From: Arthrobacter ruber
GTDB lineage: Bacteria; Actinomycetota; Actinomycetes; Actinomycetales; Micrococcaceae
Direction: 5' to 3'
Length of the DNA: 64,000 nt
Assembly: GCF_002954225.1 (NCBI RefSeq)
Contig: NZ_PPTH01000017.1
Location: 439,311 to 503,310 of the forward strand
In this document: piece by piece, positions 42,919 through 51,525 of the stretch
Layout of the letters: each line of letters starts with the position of its first letter
How positions within the stretch are numbered: position 1 is the stretch's first letter
Made by a program: the position numbers and the translations under genes
The notes under the pieces: generated by a model
The model's database searches: none
Told to the model about the DNA's origin: nothing
What the model saw: only the letters and a program-made list of their open reading frames with translations

Positions 42919-42957
42919 AATCCCGGGCAGGGAACGAATCGTACGAAGGAGGCGGCA

Positions 42958-44421
42958 ATGTCGACCATCACCGATGGAATGGACGCACCACGCGCAGCGG
43001 ACGATGAGGCGCGCTCCCGACGACGAACGGTCGGCGTGATCCTCGCCGGTGGTATCGGCACGCGGATGGGCCTCGAGATCCCCAAGCAGCTGGTACCCGT
43101 GGCGGGCCGCACGAGCCTCGAGCACACCGTCGAGATCTTCCAGCAGTGCCCCGTCATCGACGAGATCATCGTGATGATGGATCCGGGCTCCATGGACCGC
43201 GCGGAGAAGCTCGTGACGCGGGAGCGCTTCCCGAAGCTGGCAGGGCTGCTGCCCGGCGGCCGCGACCGCAACGAGACCTCCTACCTGGCGCTGCGGGAGA
43301 TCGCGACGCCGGGCTCCAAGGTGGTCTTCCACGACGCCGTCCGTCCGCTCCTGGACCCCGCGATCATCCGCGCGTGCGTCGATGCGCTGGACACCTACGA
43401 CGCCGTCGACACCGGCATCCCCTCGGCCGACACCATCATCGAGGTGGACGAGCACGACATCATCCGCGCGGTGCCGCCGCGGGCATCCCTCCGCCGCGGG
43501 CAGACGCCCCAGGCCTTCCGGTGGGACACGCTGATGGAGGCCTACGGGTCCGCGCACCAGGACCCGGACTTCGCTGCCACGGACGACTGCTCGGTGGTGC
43601 TGAAGTACTGCCCGGACGTCCCGATCATCGTGGTGCCGGGCCACGAGGCCAACATCAAGATCACGCACCCCATCGACATCCACCTGGCCGACAAGCTGTT
43701 CCAGCTCAAGCACCAGAACGCCCCCGCCCTGCCGTTCCGGGCCGCCTCGCTCCGTGGCGCCGTCGTCGTCGTGTTCGGTGGCAGCTCGGGCATCGGCAGT
43801 GAGCTCGGCCGGCAGCTCTCTGACGAGGGCGCACACGTGCTGTGCCACAGCAGGACCGGCAGCGGCACCTTCGTGGAGGACCGCGCCTCCGTCGCGCGCG
43901 CCCTGGCCGACGCCGCCGACCGGTTCGGGCGGATCGACCACGTGGTGCTCACCGCCGGGGTCCTGACGATCGGCGACCTCGTGGGTCTCTCCGACGAGCA
44001 GCTCCAGCACGACGTCGGCGTGAACCTCATGGCCGCGTTCGTCGTCGCGCAGGAGTCCCACTCCCACCTGGCGGCCTCCCGCGGGTCCCTGCTGCTGTTC
44101 TCCTCGAGCTCCTACACGCGCGGCCGCGCCAAGTACACGGTGTACTCGGCCACGAAGGCGGCGCTCGTGAACCTCACGCAGGCGCTCGCGGACGAGTGGA
44201 GCTGCGACTCGATCCGGGTCAACTGCATCAGCCCGAGCCGCACCGCCACGCCCATGCGGGAGAAGGCGTTCGGTCACGAGGACGAGGCCACGCTCGTGCA
44301 GGCCGCCGACGTCGCCCGGGTGTGTGCGCAGGTCCTCGCCTCCGACACCACGGGGCAGGTCTTCGATGTCCGCCTGGCGCAGGTCGATCCACTGCCGACC
44401 CAGCTGGAAAGTGTCCGGTGA
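42958..44421 (+). CDS. Bifunctional cytidylyltransferase / SDR reductase, predicted CDP-ribitol synthase
   Basis: 487-residue fusion. Residues about 25-255 are an IspD/TarI-like cytidylyltransferase (VGVILAGGIGTRMGLEIPKQ, FHDAVRPLLDP, RRGQTPQAFRWDTL). Residues about 265-480 are a short-chain dehydrogenase (VVFGGSSGIGSELG, YSATKAALVNLTQAL). The same order is found in Haemophilus Bcs1/Acs1, which reduces ribulose-5-phosphate and activates it as CDP-ribitol. Another CDP-alditol cannot be excluded. GGAGG precedes the ATG, and the stop overlaps the next gene by GTGA. First gene of a six-gene coupled operon for a surface glycan. Confidence 0.85.
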   Translation: MSTITDGMDAPRAADDEARSRRRTVGVILAGGIGTRMGLEIPKQLVPVAGRTSLEHTVEIFQQCPVIDEIIVMMDPGSMDRAEKLVTRERFPKLAGLLPGGRDRNETSYLALREIATPGSKVVFHDAVRPLLDPAIIRACVDALDTYDAVDTGIPSADTIIEVDEHDIIRAVPPRASLRRGQTPQAFRWDTLMEAYGSAHQDPDFAATDDCSVVLKYCPDVPIIVVPGHEANIKITHPIDIHLADKLFQLKHQNAPALPFRAASLRGAVVVVFGGSSGIGSELGRQLSDEGAHVLCHSRTGSGTFVEDRASVARALADAADRFGRIDHVVLTAGVLTIGDLVGLSDEQLQHDVGVNLMAAFVVAQESHSHLAASRGSLLLFSSSSYTRGRAKYTVYSATKAALVNLTQALADEWSCDSIRVNCISPSRTATPMREKAFGHEDEATLVQAADVARVCAQVLASDTTGQVFDVRLAQVDPLPTQLESVR

Positions 44422-45950
44422 GGGCGGGGTCCCTCACAGCCGACGCACAGCGGCTGGTGATTCCCGACGCCCGCATCCCCTCCGGTGACGCCCTGTCCGT
44501 CCTGCTCGGCGGGCGCCGCATCTGGACGGTCCGCGCCCCGGGGGCGGACGACGACGGCGCCCTCACCCTGCCCTGGCCGGCCTCGCTGGCCGAGCGGCTC
44601 ACGGGCCGGGCACGGCTCGCCGTCGAGCACGCGGGCCGAGAGGTGGCAGCAGCCACCGTGGCGTTCGACGACCACCCGACCGACTTCGGCCTGAACGAGC
44701 CGGGCACGGGGATCCCGCTGGTCGTCAACAAGTGGGGGCGCATCGCCCGGTCCTTCGAGGGCCGTGACGCCTCCCTCCTCGAGCAGGTACTCGACGAGGC
44801 CGAGCGCCTCATCGAGGTGCTGCACCGTACGCTCGGGATCGACCTGTTCGTCACGGGCGGCACGCTCCTCGGCCCGGTCCGGGACGGTCGGATCCTGGCC
44901 CACGACGACGACGCCGACCTCGCCTACTTCAGCGGGCACACCAACCCGTCCGACATCGCCCTCGAGAGCTTCCGCATCGAGCGGACGCTTGCGGAGCAGG
45001 GGTACGAGACGGTCCGGCACTCGAGCGGGCACCTGCAGCTGCTGTTCCCCGGCGGCACGGTGACGGACAGCTTCTACCTCGACATCTTCACCTACTTCGA
45101 GTGCGACGGCTGGTTCTACGGAACCTTCCACGCCCGCGAGCGCGCGGACACGGTCACCCTCCACCCGCTGAAGCCGCTGTCCGTGAACGGCAGGATGCTG
45201 CCGGGCCCCGCCGAACCCGCGCAGCTCCTCACCGCCATCTACGGGCCGTCCTGGGCGGTGCCGGATCCCACGTTCACGTTCGCCACGCCGCCCGCCGCGT
45301 TCCGCCGCTACTACTGGTGGCTCAACCACTTCGACGTGGACCGTGAGAACTGGGAGGACCACCATCGCGCCGAGATCGAGGCCGGGCCGGGCATCACGCC
45401 CTCGGACCTCGCCGTCTCCGCCGCGCAGCAGCTGCCGCCGTCGTCGACCGTCCTGGACCTCGGGTGCGGTCTCGGAGCCGACGCCCGGTACCTGGCCGAC
45501 CGCGGCCACCGCGTCCTGGCGGTCGACTACAGCCGGCCCGCGCTCGCGTGGGCGAAGGAGCACCTCGCGCACGACGACGGCGTCCGCTTCGAACGCGCGA
45601 ACCTGACCATGGCCCGCCACGCGCTGCACCTGCGGAAGCGGTGCGCCGAGCTCGACACCACCGTGCACGTCCACGCGAACCACCTCTTCAACGCGCTCAA
45701 CCCGCTGGGGTGGGACACCACGCTGATGCTCGTCAAGCACCTGCTGGCGGCGCCGGGGAGCACCGCGTTCCTCGAGGTGGGGGTGGCCGGCGCGGAAGGG
45801 TCGGCGAGCTGGATGGAGTACCAGCCCGTGGACTGGACGAGATTCCAGGAGCAGTTGCACCGGTACTCGCTGAGTGCCGAGGAGCAGGACGACGACGGAG
45901 CAGGCGAGGCGACAAGCCGCCGCGTGCTCGTGAGGAGGGAGAGGGCATGA
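44418..45950 (+). CDS. LicD/fukutin-like phosphotransferase fused to a SAM methyltransferase
   Basis: 510 residues from the GTG at 44418, which overlaps the previous stop. Residues about 115-315 carry the LicD core: LFVTGGTLLGPVRDGRILAH then DDDADLAYF, the metal-binding acidic cluster of nucleotidyltransferase-fold phosphotransferases. Residues about 335-510 are a class I methyltransferase (VLDLGCGLGADARYLA, VLAVDYSRPALAWAKEHL). LicD transfers phosphocholine; the related human FKTN and FKRP transfer ribitol-phosphate from CDP-ribitol. Next to a predicted CDP-ribitol synthase, ribitol-phosphate transfer with a linked methylation is the best guess. Confidence 0.8.
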   Translation: MRAGSLTADAQRLVIPDARIPSGDALSVLLGGRRIWTVRAPGADDDGALTLPWPASLAERLTGRARLAVEHAGREVAAATVAFDDHPTDFGLNEPGTGIPLVVNKWGRIARSFEGRDASLLEQVLDEAERLIEVLHRTLGIDLFVTGGTLLGPVRDGRILAHDDDADLAYFSGHTNPSDIALESFRIERTLAEQGYETVRHSSGHLQLLFPGGTVTDSFYLDIFTYFECDGWFYGTFHARERADTVTLHPLKPLSVNGRMLPGPAEPAQLLTAIYGPSWAVPDPTFTFATPPAAFRRYYWWLNHFDVDRENWEDHHRAEIEAGPGITPSDLAVSAAQQLPPSSTVLDLGCGLGADARYLADRGHRVLAVDYSRPALAWAKEHLAHDDGVRFERANLTMARHALHLRKRCAELDTTVHVHANHLFNALNPLGWDTTLMLVKHLLAAPGSTAFLEVGVAGAEGSASWMEYQPVDWTRFQEQLHRYSLSAEEQDDDGAGEATSRRVLVRRERA

Positions 45951-46228
45951 CCGACACGACCCAGGCCACACCCCGGGCGACGACCCAGGACATGAAGCTG
46001 CAGTTCACCGGACCGGAGGACCTCGCGGAGCAGGTCCTGGCGCTCCGGGGGGAGATGCAGGAATTGCTGGCACTCCGCGGCGAGGTGGAGCAGCTGCGCG
46101 CGGAGGTCGTCCGGCTCGACGCCGACCTCGACGAGTCGCGCCGGCTCAACCTGCGGGCCGCCGAACTGCTCGACGTCGTCTACGAGGAACTCGGCACGCG
46201 CCGCACCCCGTCGGAGGAGGCACCGTGA
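45947..46228 (+). CDS. Small coiled-coil protein (DUF6752-like)
   Basis: 93 residues from the ATG at 45947 (ATGA overlap with the previous gene, GAGGGAGAGGG upstream). Residues about 25-85 form one continuous heptad pattern: LAEQVLALRGEMQELLALRG, VEQLRAEVVRLDADLDESRR, then LNLRAAELLDVVYEEL. No enzyme motif or membrane segment. Translational coupling on both sides inside a glycan operon suggests a scaffold or length/assembly factor. The DUF6752 label is from memory. Confidence 0.8.
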   Translation: MTDTTQATPRATTQDMKLQFTGPEDLAEQVLALRGEMQELLALRGEVEQLRAEVVRLDADLDESRRLNLRAAELLDVVYEELGTRRTPSEEAP

Positions 46229-47562
46229 GCCCCCGGGAGGTCGGACCTCCGCTGGAGATCATCGGTGGTTTCGAGAGCACCTTCATGCCCGCGCACGACC
46301 GCGACATCGTCGAGACCACGGAGCACGACATCCGCTGGCGCGAGGACCTCGCCCTGCTCTCGAAGTCGGGCATCACCCGGCTGCGCTACCCCGTCCGCTG
46401 GCACCGCATCGAGGAGGTCGAGGGCGTCTTCGACTGGTCCTCCACGGACGAGGTGCTGGGCTACCTGCACGAGCACGGCTTCCGGCCCATCGTGGACCTC
46501 GTGCACCACACGAGCTACCCGGCATGGCTCGCCGAGGGCTTCGCCGACACGCGGTTCGGCCCGGCCTACCTGCGCTACGCGGAGGCCTTCGCCCGCCGCT
46601 ACCCGTGGGTGGAGGAGTACACCCTCTTCAACGAGCCCTTCTCCACCCTGTTCCTGTGCGGACACGAGGCCATCTGGCCGCCCTACCACTCGGGGTTGCA
46701 GGGATTCGTGGACCTCCTGGTCAACGTGCTCCCGGCGGTCGCGGAGGCGAGCACCCTGTACCGGGAGCTGCTGCCGGCCGCCCGGCACGTCTGGGTGGAC
46801 ACCTGCGAGTTCCACACCGGCTCCGACGAATCCGGGCAGCGGTACGCAGACATGGCCAACGACCGCCGTTTCCTCGCCCTCGACGCCTTCCTGGGCCGCG
46901 GGTACGACGTCGACAGCCAGCTCGGCCGCGATCTCGCCCCCGTGGGTGGCGAGCGCCTGCTCGGTCTCCCCACGGGGACCATCGACGTGCTCGGCCTGGA
47001 CTACTACGCGCACTGCCAGTGGAACTTCTCCGAGCAGGGCGGCACGGCGCCCACGCCCACCCCGCTGCCACTGGCCGACCAGATCCAGCAGTACTGGGAG
47101 CGGTACGCGGTGCCGTGCATGCTCACCGAGACCAATGTCCGCGGTCGCACCTCGGACCGCGCCACCTGGCTCAAGTACGTGCTCGAGCAATGCGAGGACG
47201 CCCAGACGCGCGGCGTGGCACTGGAGGGTGTCTGCTGGTTCCCCGTCATCGACTCCACCGACTGGAACTCCCTGCTCTTCCGCTGCGAGGGCCACGTGGA
47301 CCCCGTGGGTGCCTACTGGCTCGACGAGGACCTCGAGCGGCGGACGTCCGTGATGTCGACGTCGTACGCGCTCGCGGCCGGGGGAGCCCGCGCCGCGGAC
47401 CTCCCCGCCTACGTGCTCGGTGAACCCGTGGCCACCTGGCTGCAGGGCTACCGGCAGCAGATGGCCCACTGGGACTGGCAGCAGCCTCCCGGGACCGATC
47501 TCGGTTCCCGCCTCCCCCGTACAACCACTCGAATGGAATTGAGGATCGTCGATGCACAGTGA
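46225..47562 (+). CDS. Glycoside hydrolase family 1-like protein
   Basis: 445 residues, TIM-barrel pattern. RLRYPVRWHRIEEVEGVFDW and LVHHTSYPAWL match GH1/clan A strands; TLFNEPFST (acid/base Glu, about 135) and CMLTETNVRG (nucleophile region, about 300) mark the catalytic positions, though canonical GH1 has ITENG rather than LTETN. No signal peptide, so it acts in the cytosol. Within this operon it may trim or transfer sugars during glycan assembly rather than feed on glucosides. GTG start overlaps the previous stop (GTGA). Confidence 0.8.
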   Translation: MSPREVGPPLEIIGGFESTFMPAHDRDIVETTEHDIRWREDLALLSKSGITRLRYPVRWHRIEEVEGVFDWSSTDEVLGYLHEHGFRPIVDLVHHTSYPAWLAEGFADTRFGPAYLRYAEAFARRYPWVEEYTLFNEPFSTLFLCGHEAIWPPYHSGLQGFVDLLVNVLPAVAEASTLYRELLPAARHVWVDTCEFHTGSDESGQRYADMANDRRFLALDAFLGRGYDVDSQLGRDLAPVGGERLLGLPTGTIDVLGLDYYAHCQWNFSEQGGTAPTPTPLPLADQIQQYWERYAVPCMLTETNVRGRTSDRATWLKYVLEQCEDAQTRGVALEGVCWFPVIDSTDWNSLLFRCEGHVDPVGAYWLDEDLERRTSVMSTSYALAAGGARAADLPAYVLGEPVATWLQGYRQQMAHWDWQQPPGTDLGSRLPRTTTRMELRIVDAQ

Positions 47563-48688
47563 ACTCATTGTCTTGTCCCACCTGCGGTGGGAATGGGTCT
47601 GGCAGCGGCCTCAGCAGCTCGTGTCGCGCCTGAACCGTGCCCCGGGGCGCACGACCTACTTCGTCGAGGAACCCCTCACGCCGCCCGACGTCGAGCTGAC
47701 GGAGAACCGGCTGGGCACCACGGACATCGACGGCCTGACGCGCGTCTACCTGGAGATCCCGGAGCAGGGCCGGCACGTGGGCTTCTTCGACGAGGTCATG
47801 CCCGACTACGTCGCGCAGCTGCCCCAGCTCCTCGGCCCGCCCACGGGCGAGCGCGTCGTGTGGATCTACACGCCCCTGGTGCTGGAAGCCGCCCTCGCCC
47901 TGGAGCCGACCACGCTCGTGTTCGACGTCATGGACGACCTCGCGGCCTTCCGGAACGCGGCTCCCGAGCTGCTCGTGCGGCAACGCCAGGCGCTGAAGCG
48001 GGCCGACGTCGTGTTCGCGGGCGGGCGCTCGCTGCACCGGTCGGTGGTCAAGCAGGGCAGGGAGGACGCGCACCTGGTACCGAGTGGCGTCTCCGTGGCG
48101 CACTACGCGGCCGCCGCGCGGGCGGCGGACCCGGACCGCAGCAAGCCGGTGGCCGGCTACGTCGGCGTGCTCGACGAACGGCTCGACCTCGACCTCGTCG
48201 CGGGCCTCGCCGAGCGCCTGCCCGAGTGGGAGATCCGGATGATCGGTCCCATCTGCAAGATCGAGGAATCGGACCTGCCGCAGGCGCCGAACATCACCTA
48301 CTACGGACAGCAGGACTACAAGGACCTGCCGGGGCACATGGCCGACTTCGACGTCGCCCTGATGCCGTTCGCCCTCAACGAGGCCACGAAGTCCATCAGC
48401 CCCACCAAGACGCTGGAGTACCTGGCGTCCCGGCTGCCGGTGGTCTCCACCCGGGTGCCCGACGTCGTCGCGGACTTCCCGGGCGTCGTCGAGCTGCAGG
48501 ACGACGCCGAGGGCTTCGCCGCGGCCTGCGAGGCCCTGCGGGGTCGGGCCGGTGAACCGCCGTCCGCCGAGCTGCGCAAGCTGCTGAGGCGCCACGACTG
48601 GGACAGGATCGCGGAGCTGATGGACAAACTGGTGTTCGACCAGGAGCGGTCGGCGCCGGAGCGCGCCACGGCCGAGGCCACCGCCTAG
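47552..48688 (+). CDS. Glycosyltransferase, TuaH-like (GT-B fold)
   Basis: 378 residues. The opening LSHLRWEWVWQRPQQLVSRL resembles Bacillus TuaH (teichuronic acid glycosyltransferase) and related proteins. The C-terminal half has PVAGYVGVLDERLDLDLV, a donor-site block with ISPTKTLEYLASRLPVVST, and PFALNEATKS. Cytosolic or peripheral. It overlaps the GH1-like gene by 11 bp. Donor and acceptor sugars are unknown, but the context fits wall glycopolymer synthesis. Confidence 0.85.
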   Translation: MHSELIVLSHLRWEWVWQRPQQLVSRLNRAPGRTTYFVEEPLTPPDVELTENRLGTTDIDGLTRVYLEIPEQGRHVGFFDEVMPDYVAQLPQLLGPPTGERVVWIYTPLVLEAALALEPTTLVFDVMDDLAAFRNAAPELLVRQRQALKRADVVFAGGRSLHRSVVKQGREDAHLVPSGVSVAHYAAAARAADPDRSKPVAGYVGVLDERLDLDLVAGLAERLPEWEIRMIGPICKIEESDLPQAPNITYYGQQDYKDLPGHMADFDVALMPFALNEATKSISPTKTLEYLASRLPVVSTRVPDVVADFPGVVELQDDAEGFAAACEALRGRAGEPPSAELRKLLRRHDWDRIAELMDKLVFDQERSAPERATAEATA

Positions 48689-48693
48689 CGCCC

Positions 48694-49605
48694 ATGCCGA
48701 CTCCCAGTAGACCCGAGGGTGCAGCCCTCTCGGGGGAGCACCCTCCCGCCGACCATCTCCTCCTCCACTTCAGCGACACCCACTTCGTGGCCGACGGCCC
48801 GCTGTACGGCGGGGTCGACGCCCGCGAACGGCTCGCCCAGCTGCTGGAGGAGGTGGGGCGCTCAGGCGTCCGTCCCGATGCGCTCGTCTTCACGGGCGAC
48901 CTCACGGACAAGGGCGCCCCCGACGCCTATGCGTCCCTCCGGGAGGTCGTGGAGCCCGTCGCCGAGGAGTTGGGCACTCCGGTGATCTGGCTCATGGGCA
49001 ACCACGACAAGCGGCCCGCCCTGCGCGCGGCGCTACTCGGCGAGCCGCCGGAGGACACGCCGCTGTACCGCAGCTACCGATTGGGCGGGCTGCGCGTCAT
49101 CGCGCTCGACACCTCGGTGCCCGGCTACCACCACGGGGAGCTCGACGACGCGCAGCTGGCCTGGCTCGGGGCGGAGCTGGCCCGGCCCGCGCCCGAGGGC
49201 AGCATCCTCGCCCTCCACCATCCGCCCATCCCGACGGTGCAGGACCTCGCCGTGCTCACCGAGCTGCGCCGGCAGGACCGGCTCGCGGAGGTCGTGGCGG
49301 GGTCGGACGTCCGCCTGATCATCGCCGGCCACGCGCACTTCCCGTCGTCCGCGATGTTCGCGGGGATCCCGGTGTCGGTAGCGTCGTCCACCTGCTACAC
49401 GCAGGACCTCACCGTGGCCGTGGGCGGCGTGAGGGGCAGGGACGGTGCGCAGGGCTTCAACCTCGTGCACGTCTATCCGCACACGATCGTCTCGTCGGTG
49501 GTCACGATCGGGTCCTACCCGACCGTGGGGGAGTACATTCCCCCGGAGGAGGTACGACGGCGCCTGGCGGCGGTGCACGGGGCGGTGGGCCCGGTGCGGC
49601 GCTGA
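48694..49605 (+). CDS. CpdA-like metallophosphoesterase
   Basis: 303-residue calcineurin-fold phosphoesterase with all metal motifs: HFSDTHF, VFTGDLTDKG, LMGNHDKR, LALHHPP and IAGHAHFPS. Closest general family is cyclic-nucleotide phosphodiesterase CpdA, but many relatives hydrolyse phospholipid-type or teichoic phosphodiesters. It starts 5 bp after the glycosyltransferase stop and is the last gene of the envelope operon, so a phosphodiester of the glycan pathway is a plausible substrate. Confidence 0.88.
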   Translation: MPTPSRPEGAALSGEHPPADHLLLHFSDTHFVADGPLYGGVDARERLAQLLEEVGRSGVRPDALVFTGDLTDKGAPDAYASLREVVEPVAEELGTPVIWLMGNHDKRPALRAALLGEPPEDTPLYRSYRLGGLRVIALDTSVPGYHHGELDDAQLAWLGAELARPAPEGSILALHHPPIPTVQDLAVLTELRRQDRLAEVVAGSDVRLIIAGHAHFPSSAMFAGIPVSVASSTCYTQDLTVAVGGVRGRDGAQGFNLVHVYPHTIVSSVVTIGSYPTVGEYIPPEEVRRRLAAVHGAVGPVRR

Positions 49606-49713: not shown

Positions 49714-51525
49714 GCCTTCAACCGGTGCAGGCAGCTCACCTCCCGCACCCGCGGCGGGCAGGGTTTGTTGTGGGCGTACGACGCCGACGGCAACCGGACT
49801 TCCTTCACCGATACCCGGGGTACGACCACCACCTACACCCGCGACAGTGCCGGACGGCTCACCACCGTCACCAACCCGCTGCTCGGGCACGCGGTGTTCA
49901 CACACAACCCCTCCGGACGCCTCACCTCGGCGACTGCGGGATATTTGGTGCAGGAATGGGCCTACCGTCATGGGGCTCTTGCTGAGCACAGCCGCACCGT
50001 CTCCTCCACCCACGCGGGGTGGGCCGACCACATGGACGGCCCAGAAAGTGCCTCGAGCACTACAGACGGCACGGACGTGACGCTGATCGGTCGGGACGAC
50101 GACAGCCGCATCACCGCGCTGACCCGCGCCGGGGCGGTCACACGGTACGGGTACGACGGAGCCGGGCAGCTGATCACCGCCACCACCTCCGCGATCGGTG
50201 GCTCGGAAGCACCGGCACCGGCACCGCAGGCGGAGTCGACGTCGGAGTGGGAGTACGACGCCGGTGGACGACTGGTCCGCGAGGCCACCCCGGCAGGGTC
50301 GCGGGTATTCGACTACGACGCCGCAGGACAACTCCTGGCCATCATCGGCCCCGACGGGTCACGGACGGAATTCATCCACGACGGACTCGGCCGGCGCACC
50401 CGGCTCATCCACCCAGGGGGGTCCTGGACCGAGTACGCATGGGGCCCCACCGGTCACCTGAAGAGCACGTGTGACCGCACCCCCGACGGCGAGGTCACGT
50501 CCCGACACGAGCTGTGGGTCGACGCCCTCGGCGAACTCGCCGGCATCGACGGCGCCCGGCTGTGGTGGGACACCGCGAACCACATACCCACCCTCACGGG
50601 TATCACCCCAACGACCTCCGGCGGCACTGGCCCTACTCCCACCAGCGGCCTCGCAGGTGTCGCTGGTGAGCAGGTGTTGTCCCTGCCCGGCGGTGTGACA
50701 GGAATCGGGGAGGCATGGACGGCGTCGGGCTGGCGGGCCGCCCGCCCCACCGATGAGGCCGACCCTTGGGCGGTCCTGGGCGCCCCGGCGATCCCCGACC
50801 CCTCACCCGGACGCACCTCGGCCGGGATGGTCGGTGGACTGCCGGTGGGTGTCAGCCTGACCCGTCACGGCGGGGTGGACACTGCGGGCCTGGAGTGGCT
50901 CGGAGGTGGGGCGCTGACTGCCGGGCGGGCCGCCGCTGCTATGGCGTCATTGGCTTCGAGGCTCGGCAGCTACGTCGCCGTGAATGCGGGTGTCAACGGG
51001 GCAGCGGGCGCTGTTGGTGGCGCTGCGACTCATCTGATCAAGAACGGGGGCAGAGTCGACAACTGGCGGTCCTTCGCTGGATCCGTAGCCGGTGGTACTT
51101 TGAGCGGCGCTGTGGGCGGGCTGGCGGGACCTGCTGGCGGGACCCTGGCCCGTGCAGGCGGTCATGGCGCATATACGCTCACTGCCGCAGGCGCCAGGCC
51201 TACACTTCAGGCTGCGGCAGCAACCACTGCGCTTGGAAGTGGTGGTGCGATCGCGGGTACCGTGACCGACAAGTTCATCTCCGGGGAAGCAGTCACGTGG
51301 GCCGACGTAGGGTGGTCGGGGATTACCGGTGGTGCGCTCACCCACCTACCTGGCGGACCCAGCTCATCAAGTACACTCCAGCAAGCGGCACGAACGAACG
51401 TCAGTACGTTGTCGGGGCTTGCGAGCGGCGGCCCGAACTCGATTGCGTTGGTACGTTCCTCCCTCTATGGAACGACGACGGGATCGGGACTGGATGTTGC
51501 CAAGTTTTTCGTTGCTGGAAACTGA
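49714..51525 (+). pseudogene. RHS-repeat protein remnant, 5'-truncated with an internal core deletion
   Basis: The frame is open from 49606, but RHS-like sequence begins only near 49714 (NRCRQLTSRTRGGQGLLWAY), and the first usable start is a TTG at 49765 with no proper ribosome-binding site. YD-type repeats follow (YDADGNRTSFTDTRGTTTTY, EYDAGGRLVREATPAGSRVF). At VDTAGLEWLG, where RHS cores normally continue to ARxYDPxTR and a DPLG end, the sequence jumps to an Ala/Gly-rich C-terminal segment ending FVAGN. Core closure and any recognisable toxin domain are missing. Composition drops in GC towards the end. Interpreted as the scar of a polymorphic-toxin gene. Confidence 0.75.

Follow-up and report, generated by a model that had tools for sequence, protein, structure and literature searches.

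Bcs1 of Haemophilus has been shown to make CDP-ribitol (PMC10299916). The Haemophilus enzyme (Bcs1/Acs1) carries a cytidylyltransferase and a reductase in one polypeptide and stands with the capsule polymerase Bcs3. The human ISPD-FKTN/FKRP system combines an activating enzyme with an FKRP-fold transferase. Bacterial proteins in which an ISPD-like part is joined to LicD have been noted before (PMC4873967), so this pairing in itself is not new. A different logic is found in the O-antigen terminators WbdD and O7 ORF6, which join a methyltransferase, a domain adding a phospho-group and a coiled coil, and act on ABC-exported glycans (PMC11231755, PMC3482155); WbdD adds its phosphate by means of a kinase domain.

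The locus described here lies in a 64,000-nucleotide stretch of DNA from the soil bacterium Arthrobacter ruber, called the window, and consists of six coupled genes (g1 to g6) on the + strand at 42958-49605 (Table 1). In its domain architecture g1 is, like Bcs1, a cytidylyltransferase-reductase fusion, but its partner gene encodes an FKRP-fold transferase rather than a capsule polymerase. The catalytic aspartates of human FKRP are identical in g2; however, g2 is bacterial, is fused to a methyltransferase and lacks the zinc-finger-loop cysteines, and the SDR motifs of g1 are intact. The parts of WbdD and O7 ORF6 recur in g2-g3, with a LicD/FKRP domain in place of the WbdD kinase. In contrast to those terminators, the coiled coil (g3) is short and usually a separate gene, the glycan would be an actinobacterial galactofuranan, the host Wzt has no carbohydrate-binding module in Pfam, and termination is here a proposal. 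Computation establishes the domains, the residues of the active sites, the fold, the pairing of the genes and the change of activated-alcohol supplier, whereas ribitol, the galactofuranan acceptor, capping, the target of methylation and the roles of g3 to g6 are inferred. On balance we favour, with somewhat better than even confidence, the view that the operon provides a polyol-phosphate (probably ribitol-phosphate) and methyl cap for an exported galactofuranan. A search of the open-access literature returned nothing bearing on CDP-ribitol or wall glycopolymers in Arthrobacter, on a cytidylyltransferase with LicD in actinobacteria, or on LicD with galactan.

Organization and conservation of the operon

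The six-gene coupled operon is real, correctly placed and conserved. As the sequence-only reading had described, start and stop codons overlap at g1/g2 (GTGA), g2/g3 (ATGA) and g3/g4 (GTGA), g4 and g5 overlap by 11 bp, and 5 bp separate g5 from g6; its domain calls agree with Pfam and NCBIfam (IspD and adh_short in g1, GH1 in g4, Metallophos in g6). The operon goes beyond chance, because dN/dS (NG86, against two relatives, L004 and L008) is 0.12-0.41 across the six genes and half of the g2 loci from a single scan (19/38) keep the order g1-g2-g3-g4-g5. The expected synteny holds well wherever g2 is present, but g2 itself is patchy, being found in 5/297 genomes of the order (E <= 1e-20) and, within the family, in 2/24 of that sample.

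Table 1. Positions in the window of the operon, its genes and their domains and residues
Feature	Position	Strand	Basis or detail
Shine-Dalgarno-like AAGGAGG 5' of g1	42946..42952	+	sequence
g1, IspD/TarI-type cytidylyltransferase fused to SDR, predicted Bcs1-like CDP-polyol synthase, 487 aa	42958..44421	+	ATG start
g1 cytidylyltransferase domain, residues 27-246	43036..43695	+	PF01128, 156.7 bits
g1 SDR reductase domain, about residues 264-475, FGGSSGIG and YSATK intact	43747..44382	+	
g2, LicD/FKRP-fold transferase and SAM methyltransferase, 510 aa	44418..45950	+	
g2 FKRP-like nucleotidyltransferase-fold core, residues 105-287	44730..45278	+	
g2 catalytic DDDAD (D163, D165, D167 = FKRP D360, D362, D364)	44904..44918	+	FKRP alignment
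g2 D222 (= FKRP D416)	45081..45083	+	FKRP alignment
g2 methyltransferase domain, residues 307-510	45336..45947	+	
g3, short coiled-coil protein, DUF6752, 93 aa	45947..46228	+	
g4, GH1-like protein	46225..47562	+	
g5, GT-B glycosyltransferase, weakly TuaH-like	47552..48688	+	
g6, calcineurin-like phosphodiesterase, CpdA/SpdA-like	48694..49605	+	

The genes g4 and g5 are a separate GH1-like/glycosyltransferase module with a wider distribution of its own. The catalytic residues E137 (46633-46635) and E302 (47128-47130) of g4 are invariant, and no signal peptide was seen in this protein by eye. Family models place g5 in glycosyltransferase group 1. Its proposed TuaH-like character reduces to a glycosyltransferase with weak TuaH resemblance, since the NCBIfam TuaH model gives 80.1 bits against a cut-off of 550, which rules out membership of that family; three distant g5 relatives are fused to UDP-galactopyranose mutase (UGM). 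The metal motifs of g6 are intact by eye, and in relatives this gene sits before g1 or after g5.

A bifunctional transferase with varying suppliers

The call of g2 as a LicD-fold transferase stands for its first half; the methyltransferase of the second half (Methyltransf_25, 39.1 bits) had been overlooked, so that g2 is bifunctional. Pfam LicD gives 22.0 bits on the window protein, just short of the 22.6 cut-off, and PF04991 is present in the precomputed annotation of several relatives. Because the structure search with the full model filled with methyltransferases, residues 1-325 were folded on their own, and the first 13 Foldseek matches of this predicted fold are FKRP. After the FKRP chain numbering was shifted by 40 to match the published residue numbers, the four catalytic aspartates (D163, D165, D167 and D222) could be aligned, and they are invariant in 34/34 alignment rows. 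The fukutin/FKRP-like fold with an intact active site, which had been named as a point on which the reading could fail, is therefore borne out. By eye, residues 90-140, the site of the FKRP C4 zinc-finger loop, contain no cysteine. No kinase family is matched in g2, the FKRP fold standing in its place.

The identity of g3 had been missed: it is a DUF6752 protein (28.2 bits, cut-off 27) with the motif LDESRRLNLRAAELLDVV and a coiled coil, paired with g2. Although usually a separate gene, it is fused to g2 in two relatives (L022 and L057). Over 41 g2 loci the g2-g3 pair is near-constant while the supplier of the activated alcohol varies: 22 loci have an IspD-SDR enzyme, eight a TagD-type, glycerol-1-phosphate-type or other nucleotidyltransferase, and in 11 of the 19 loci without g1 none was recognised with the queries used. 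Two suppliers are MobA-like nucleotidyltransferases whose top models, below cut-off, are of the sugar-phosphate uridylyl- or GlmU-type, and that of L056 is an unfused IspD that could be a housekeeping enzyme. Relatives of g2 also occur with suppliers of the glycerol type, so this family of transferases is not bound to ribitol.

The anatomy of a CDP-ribitol synthase that had been read into g1 is supported, an IspD/TarI-type domain being fused to an intact SDR. The YxxxK of the SDR is present in 22/22 sequences (the window and 21 loci), and its glycine loop in 13 of them by pattern and in the other nine by eye. Of the best four PDB matches, two chains bear the name ribitol-5-phosphate cytidylyltransferase and the other two are labelled MEP cytidylyltransferase, although in the tree this second pair clusters with the first; 2vsh is a TarI. 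The g1 residues VRP, AVDT, GQTPQ and DxC are common to four TarI-group chains and absent from two IspD. Overall identity (33-36% with TarI versus 36.6% and 30% with IspD) does not separate the two groups, and in a small tree g1 forms a third cluster, outside TarI. The NCBIfam ispD and ribitol models give 166.7 and 153.1, both under cut-off. The host has a separate IspD, followed by IspF, whose IspD score exceeds that of g1, and on account of this pair g1 was rejected as the MEP-pathway IspD of the cell. A third IspD-family match of the host, on contig C11, is GlmU-like by eye and was set aside.

Both g1 domains occur in 31 genomes of the order, and 29 of these carry a PF04464 (TagF/TarL) polymerase gene of wall teichoic acid, against 159/297 overall (Fisher p 5.7e-7, a value inflated by relatedness, since 17 of the 31 come from one family, f20; outside it the figure is 12/14). 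The only two without PF04464 are the host and a congener (G041), and both carry g2. Near g1 itself, a strong PF04464 match is found in 4 of 13 g1 stretches of other genomes, those four being the sources of the query proteins. The g1 product is probably a CDP-polyol, for which CDP-ribitol is the likeliest candidate. Another activated alcohol, such as CDP-arabinitol or CDP-xylitol, used likewise and compatible with capping, is rather unlikely. In its favour, the pentulose used cannot be read from the SDR sequence, g1 has its own cluster in the tree, and glycerol-type suppliers accompany g2 relatives. However, the TarI-like residues of the cytidylyltransferase domain would speak for ribitol, as does the fused Haemophilus Bcs1, a CDP-ribitol producer (PMC10299916).

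Galactofuranan as the candidate acceptor

The absence of a TagF/TarL polymerase, claimed for the operon, extends to the whole host genome, where PF04464 has no match (the same search was positive in 3/14 control genomes). This rules out a TagF/TarL polymer in the host and supports the earlier suggestion of decoration rather than polymer building. An ABC exporter had been read as missing, but a Wzm/Wzt exporter does exist in a galactan locus elsewhere in the genome; outside the operon the genome also has UGM and GlfT2-like genes. This locus is apart from the operon (contig C5 versus C8), and the Wzt protein (243 aa) has no carbohydrate-binding module in Pfam.

In other genomes the two sets of genes come together. 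UGM or GlfT2 genes are present in 13/41 g2 loci, and g2-g3 adjoins them in Actinomycetospora, Leucobacter and two further genomes (G212 and G223). In G021, homologues of the Wzm (53%) and Wzt (61%) of the host galactan locus lie beside g1 and a fused g2-g3; the stretch that follows contains DUF6541, GlfT2 and UGM, the last of these about 17 kb from g2. Within the stretch around each locus, UGM/GlfT2 were not seen in 21 of 22 g1-bearing loci, including G021 with its genes just beyond, nor in five Geodermatophilaceae g2 loci. The congener G113 has the galactan locus and lacks g1 and g2, so the cap would be dispensable for galactan. The presence of UGM in 5/5 g2 genomes carries too little weight to be used, since it occurs in 160/297 genomes of the order.

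Under the capping proposal, g1 would reduce a pentulose 5-phosphate (likeliest ribulose 5-phosphate) with NADPH and activate the product with CTP to a CDP-polyol, likeliest CDP-ribitol. The FKRP-fold half of g2 would move the polyol-phosphate onto a galactofuranose chain, putatively the galactofuranan for which the genome encodes UGM, GlfT2-like and Wzm/Wzt proteins elsewhere, and the methyltransferase half would methylate either the transferred group or the end of the chain. The coiled-coil partner g3 may space or dock g2 on the polymerase/export complex. This glycan is probably also the target of g4 and g5, where g5 would be a Galf-related transferase and g4 a GH1 enzyme that trims or transglycosylates, and g6 may recycle a CDP-alcohol or a cyclic nucleotide.

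It is rather unlikely, a shade more so than the choice of another polyol, that g1-g2 add a ribitol-phosphate side group to some other glycan (a glycolipid, a teichuronic-type polymer or the g4-g5 product), unrelated to galactan termination. Galactan genes are indeed missing around the operon in the host and around nearly all g1-bearing loci, as counted above, and g4-g5 is the neighbour in 19/38 scan loci; against this stand the adjoining UGM/GlfT2 genes in the four genera or genomes named, the galactan-type Wzm/Wzt in G021 and the UGM fusions of the three g5 relatives. It is quite improbable that g2 transfers phosphocholine or phosphoethanolamine like classical LicD proteins. It shares their superfamily, and a LicD-family protein shown to use CDP-choline is also most FKRP-like (PMC11982090), but the neighbours that were annotated are of the IspD-SDR, TagD and glycerol-1-phosphate types. 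Least probable by far is that g1 is a second MEP-pathway IspD in an operon for isoprenoid or general metabolism, an idea that the high IspD scores and an identity to one IspD equal to that with TarI would favour, but that the higher-scoring host IspD-IspF pair, the SDR fusion and the co-occurrence of g1 with PF04464 polymerases or g2 contradict.

A possible chain terminator with an exchangeable alcohol

More tentatively, and short of even confidence, the capping proposal may be extended to g2-g3 in general as the protein pair that terminates a wall galactan exported by an ABC transporter. The LicD/FKRP domain would set a polyol-phosphate cap, the methyltransferase would finish it, and the coiled coil, of clade-specific length and fused or separate, would serve as ruler or dock; in the course of evolution one cap alcohol would have given way to another whenever the supplier cassette was replaced (IspD-SDR, TagD, or glycerol-1-phosphate dehydrogenase plus nucleotidyltransferase). 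We know of no earlier actinobacterial terminator of this kind. Galactofuranan genes (UGM) are widespread in the order (160/297 genomes), but outside mycobacteria little is known, to our knowledge, about the termination or modification of these chains. FKRP is a human muscular-dystrophy protein, and a bacterial FKRP-fold enzyme with its own polyol supplier and methyltransferase would be a tractable model of the fukutin family. If the proposal is true, WbdD-type capping logic extends to Gram-positive walls, with a polyol-phosphate transferase replacing the kinase, and the change of supplier predicts which sugar alcohol each lineage carries.

The coupled operon and its cytidylyltransferase

The host genome (3.66 Mb, 100% complete) carries six genes, here g1 to g6, which the sequence-only reading described as one coupled operon; all six genes, together with every junction stated for them, match the window sequence, and the arrangement was thus confirmed. 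In comparison with two relatives, dN/dS values range from 0.12 to 0.41 across the operon, the highest being that of g3, which encodes a short coiled-coil protein. The nearest named relatives of g2, a LicD/FKRP-fold protein with a methyltransferase domain, belong to Arthrobacter (90-91% identity). Immediately 3' of the operon an Rhs/YD-repeat-like frame was seen by eye, and beyond it the GC content is lower for a stretch, at about 62%.

The biochemical proposal, a CDP-ribitol synthase (g1) paired with a fukutin-like transferase (g2), was largely borne out with respect to fold and motifs. The cytidylyltransferase domain of g1 matches the IspD family with 156.7 bits. Its four best solved relatives are 4jis and 6xhp, named ribitol-5-phosphate cytidylyltransferases, and 3f1c and 2vsh, labelled MEP cytidylyltransferases, the last of which we take to be a TarI. 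In a small tree, 3f1c and 2vsh cluster with 4jis and 6xhp, while g1 and its relatives form a cluster of their own, separate from both TarI and IspD. Identity is not decisive, being 33-36% with members of the TarI group and 36.6% and 30% with two IspD proteins, and the NCBIfam scores for ispD (166.7 bits) and ribitol-5-phosphate cytidylyltransferase (153.1 bits) both fall below the cut-off. At four places (VRP, AVDT, GQTPQ, and DxC) g1 agrees with the TarI group and differs from the two IspD proteins. The host possesses a second IspD, scoring above g1 and followed by IspF. The SDR domain keeps its YxxxK motif in 22/22 g1 sequences (the window and 21 loci), as well as its glycine loop (13 by pattern, nine by eye).

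Strong g1 matches are present in 32 of the 297 genomes of the order, 31 of them with both domains. A PF04464 (TagF/TarL polymerase) gene is present in 29 of these 31 genomes, versus 159/297 overall (Fisher p 5.7e-7, a significance inflated by relatedness); 17 of the 31 belong to a single family, outside of which the proportion is 12/14. Only the host and one congener, G041, lack such a gene, and both have g2. Therefore, the g1-type enzyme mostly accompanies polyol-phosphate polymer genes, a LicD-type transferase being found here instead.

The g2-g3 unit and its candidate suppliers

We collected 41 g2 loci, 38 from one scan of named genomes plus L055, L056, and L057. The scan loci come from Arthrobacter, Pseudarthrobacter, Microbacteriaceae including Leucobacter, Geodermatophilaceae, Actinomycetospora, one Propionibacterium, and one record titled Vibrio cholerae strain 35D. 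The latter shows Arthrobacter gene order, with g1, g2, g4, g5, and g6 at 79-90% identity, and is probably a mislabelled or contaminated assembly.

A short gene matching the g3 profile, which was built from seven sequences (five of them from the loci counted), directly follows g2 in 38/41 loci. The coiled coil is joined to the C-terminal end of g2 in L022 and L057, and in Propionibacterium acidifaciens (L023) the g2 frame is broken, with a g3-like coiled-coil match downstream. Pfam DUF6752 was confirmed in g3 of L023, L024, L030, L032, L039, L055, and the window; the host genome contains no second DUF6752 protein. Among those scanned, g3 varies from 64 (L039) to 137 residues (L024) around a constant C-terminal motif.

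The supplier of the activated polyol is less constant. g1 accompanies g2 in 22/41 loci, and the queries used found an alternative candidate in eight of the other 19. A TagD-type cytidylyltransferase occurs in L028, L033, L034 (assigned from its similarity to L028), and L056; glycerol-3-phosphate cytidylyltransferase is the top NCBIfam model for L028, L033, and L056, above cut-off only in L056, where an additional unfused IspD may be housekeeping. L025, L027, and L029 combine a nucleotidyltransferase with a glycerol-1-phosphate-dehydrogenase-like protein (best model, below cut-off, in L025; by similarity in the other two), and L055 has a MobA-like nucleotidyltransferase. The best models for the L025 and L055 nucleotidyltransferases are sugar-phosphate uridylyl- and GlmU-type, both below cut-off. 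With these queries no supplier was found in the remaining 11 loci, several of which lie on short contigs. A near-constant transferase with an exchangeable supplier is the pattern expected of a CDP-alcohol phosphotransferase.

A probable link to galactan

Both GH1 catalytic glutamates, presumably the acid/base and nucleophile positions, are kept in 22/22 aligned g4 sequences. The distribution of g4 extends beyond the class: at E <= 1e-60 it is found in 7/296 genomes sampled across the phylum, counting the host, and among the matches listed at E <= 1e-5 there are at least 756 g4 proteins vs at least 214 for g2. A glycosyltransferase like g5 adjoins g4 in 5/6 other genomes fetched; in four of these five UDP-galactopyranose mutase (UGM) adjoins the pair, and in three it is fused to the glycosyltransferase. 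Thus, g4-g5 constitutes an independent, Galf-linked module that has become joined to g1-g3 in the window. The phosphodiesterase gene g6 follows g5 in 10/38 scan loci and precedes g1 in 7/38.

Coordinates of features in the window and in fetched loci
Feature	Position	Remarks
Operon g1-g6	window 42958-49605	+ strand
Rhs/YD-repeat-like frame	window 49765-51525
Broken g2 frame	L023:9896-11718	P. acidifaciens
TylF-like methyltransferase gene	L030:8905-9741	Actinomycetospora; adjoins g2 and GlfT2; N-terminus coiled-coil-like by eye
Host galactan locus	L043:3581-12839	DUF6541, Wzt, Wzm, GlfT2-like, UGM, AT3-SGNH acyltransferase
Galactan-type locus	L056:6660-18613	two g2 copies, TagD and IspD-type cytidylyltransferases
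g5-like glycosyltransferase-UGM fusions, GH1-like gene adjacent	L067:6604-8922, L068:6906-9146, L069:10558-12732	three distant actinobacterial genomes

UGM or GlfT2 occurs in 12/19 g2 loci without g1 and in 1/22 with it (L015). In genome G212, about 12 kb hold GlfT2, two g2 copies, TagD, IspD, and UGM, with a short gene after each g2, the first of which was tested as g3. In genome G021, g1 and a g2-coiled-coil fusion adjoin homologues of the host galactan exporter proteins Wzm (53%) and Wzt (61%), the next stretch carrying DUF6541 (29%), GlfT2 (46%), and UGM (74%). The only UGM of the host lies inside its galactan locus, where GlfT2 is 48% and UGM 95% identical to those of G041. Counting against a galactan acceptor, galactan genes were found near g2 neither in most g1-type loci nor in 5/5 Geodermatophilaceae loci, the congener G113 has the galactan locus and lacks g1 and g2, and UGM is present in 160/297 genomes.

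A putative capping role

WbdD and O7 ORF6 terminate ABC-exported O-antigen chains by means of a methyltransferase and a kinase together with a coiled coil that serves as a ruler (PMC11231755; PMC3482155). g2-g3 has a comparable composition, except that g2 carries an FKRP domain where those proteins have the kinase, and for this reason we favour capping over internal decoration as its putative role. Caution is called for by the short coiled coil of g3 and by the host Wzt, in which Pfam detects no carbohydrate-binding module. In L056, where g2 occurs twice and both TagD and IspD-type cytidylyltransferases are present, the gene content suggests that a single organism carries two distinct caps.

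Fusions between ISPD-like and LicD proteins in bacteria are already mentioned in PMC4873967, so that the novelty here lies in the unit of methyltransferase and coiled coil, in the exchange of its suppliers, and in its link to galactan. Beyond the pairing first proposed, this g2-g3 unit and its connection with galactan are the larger find.
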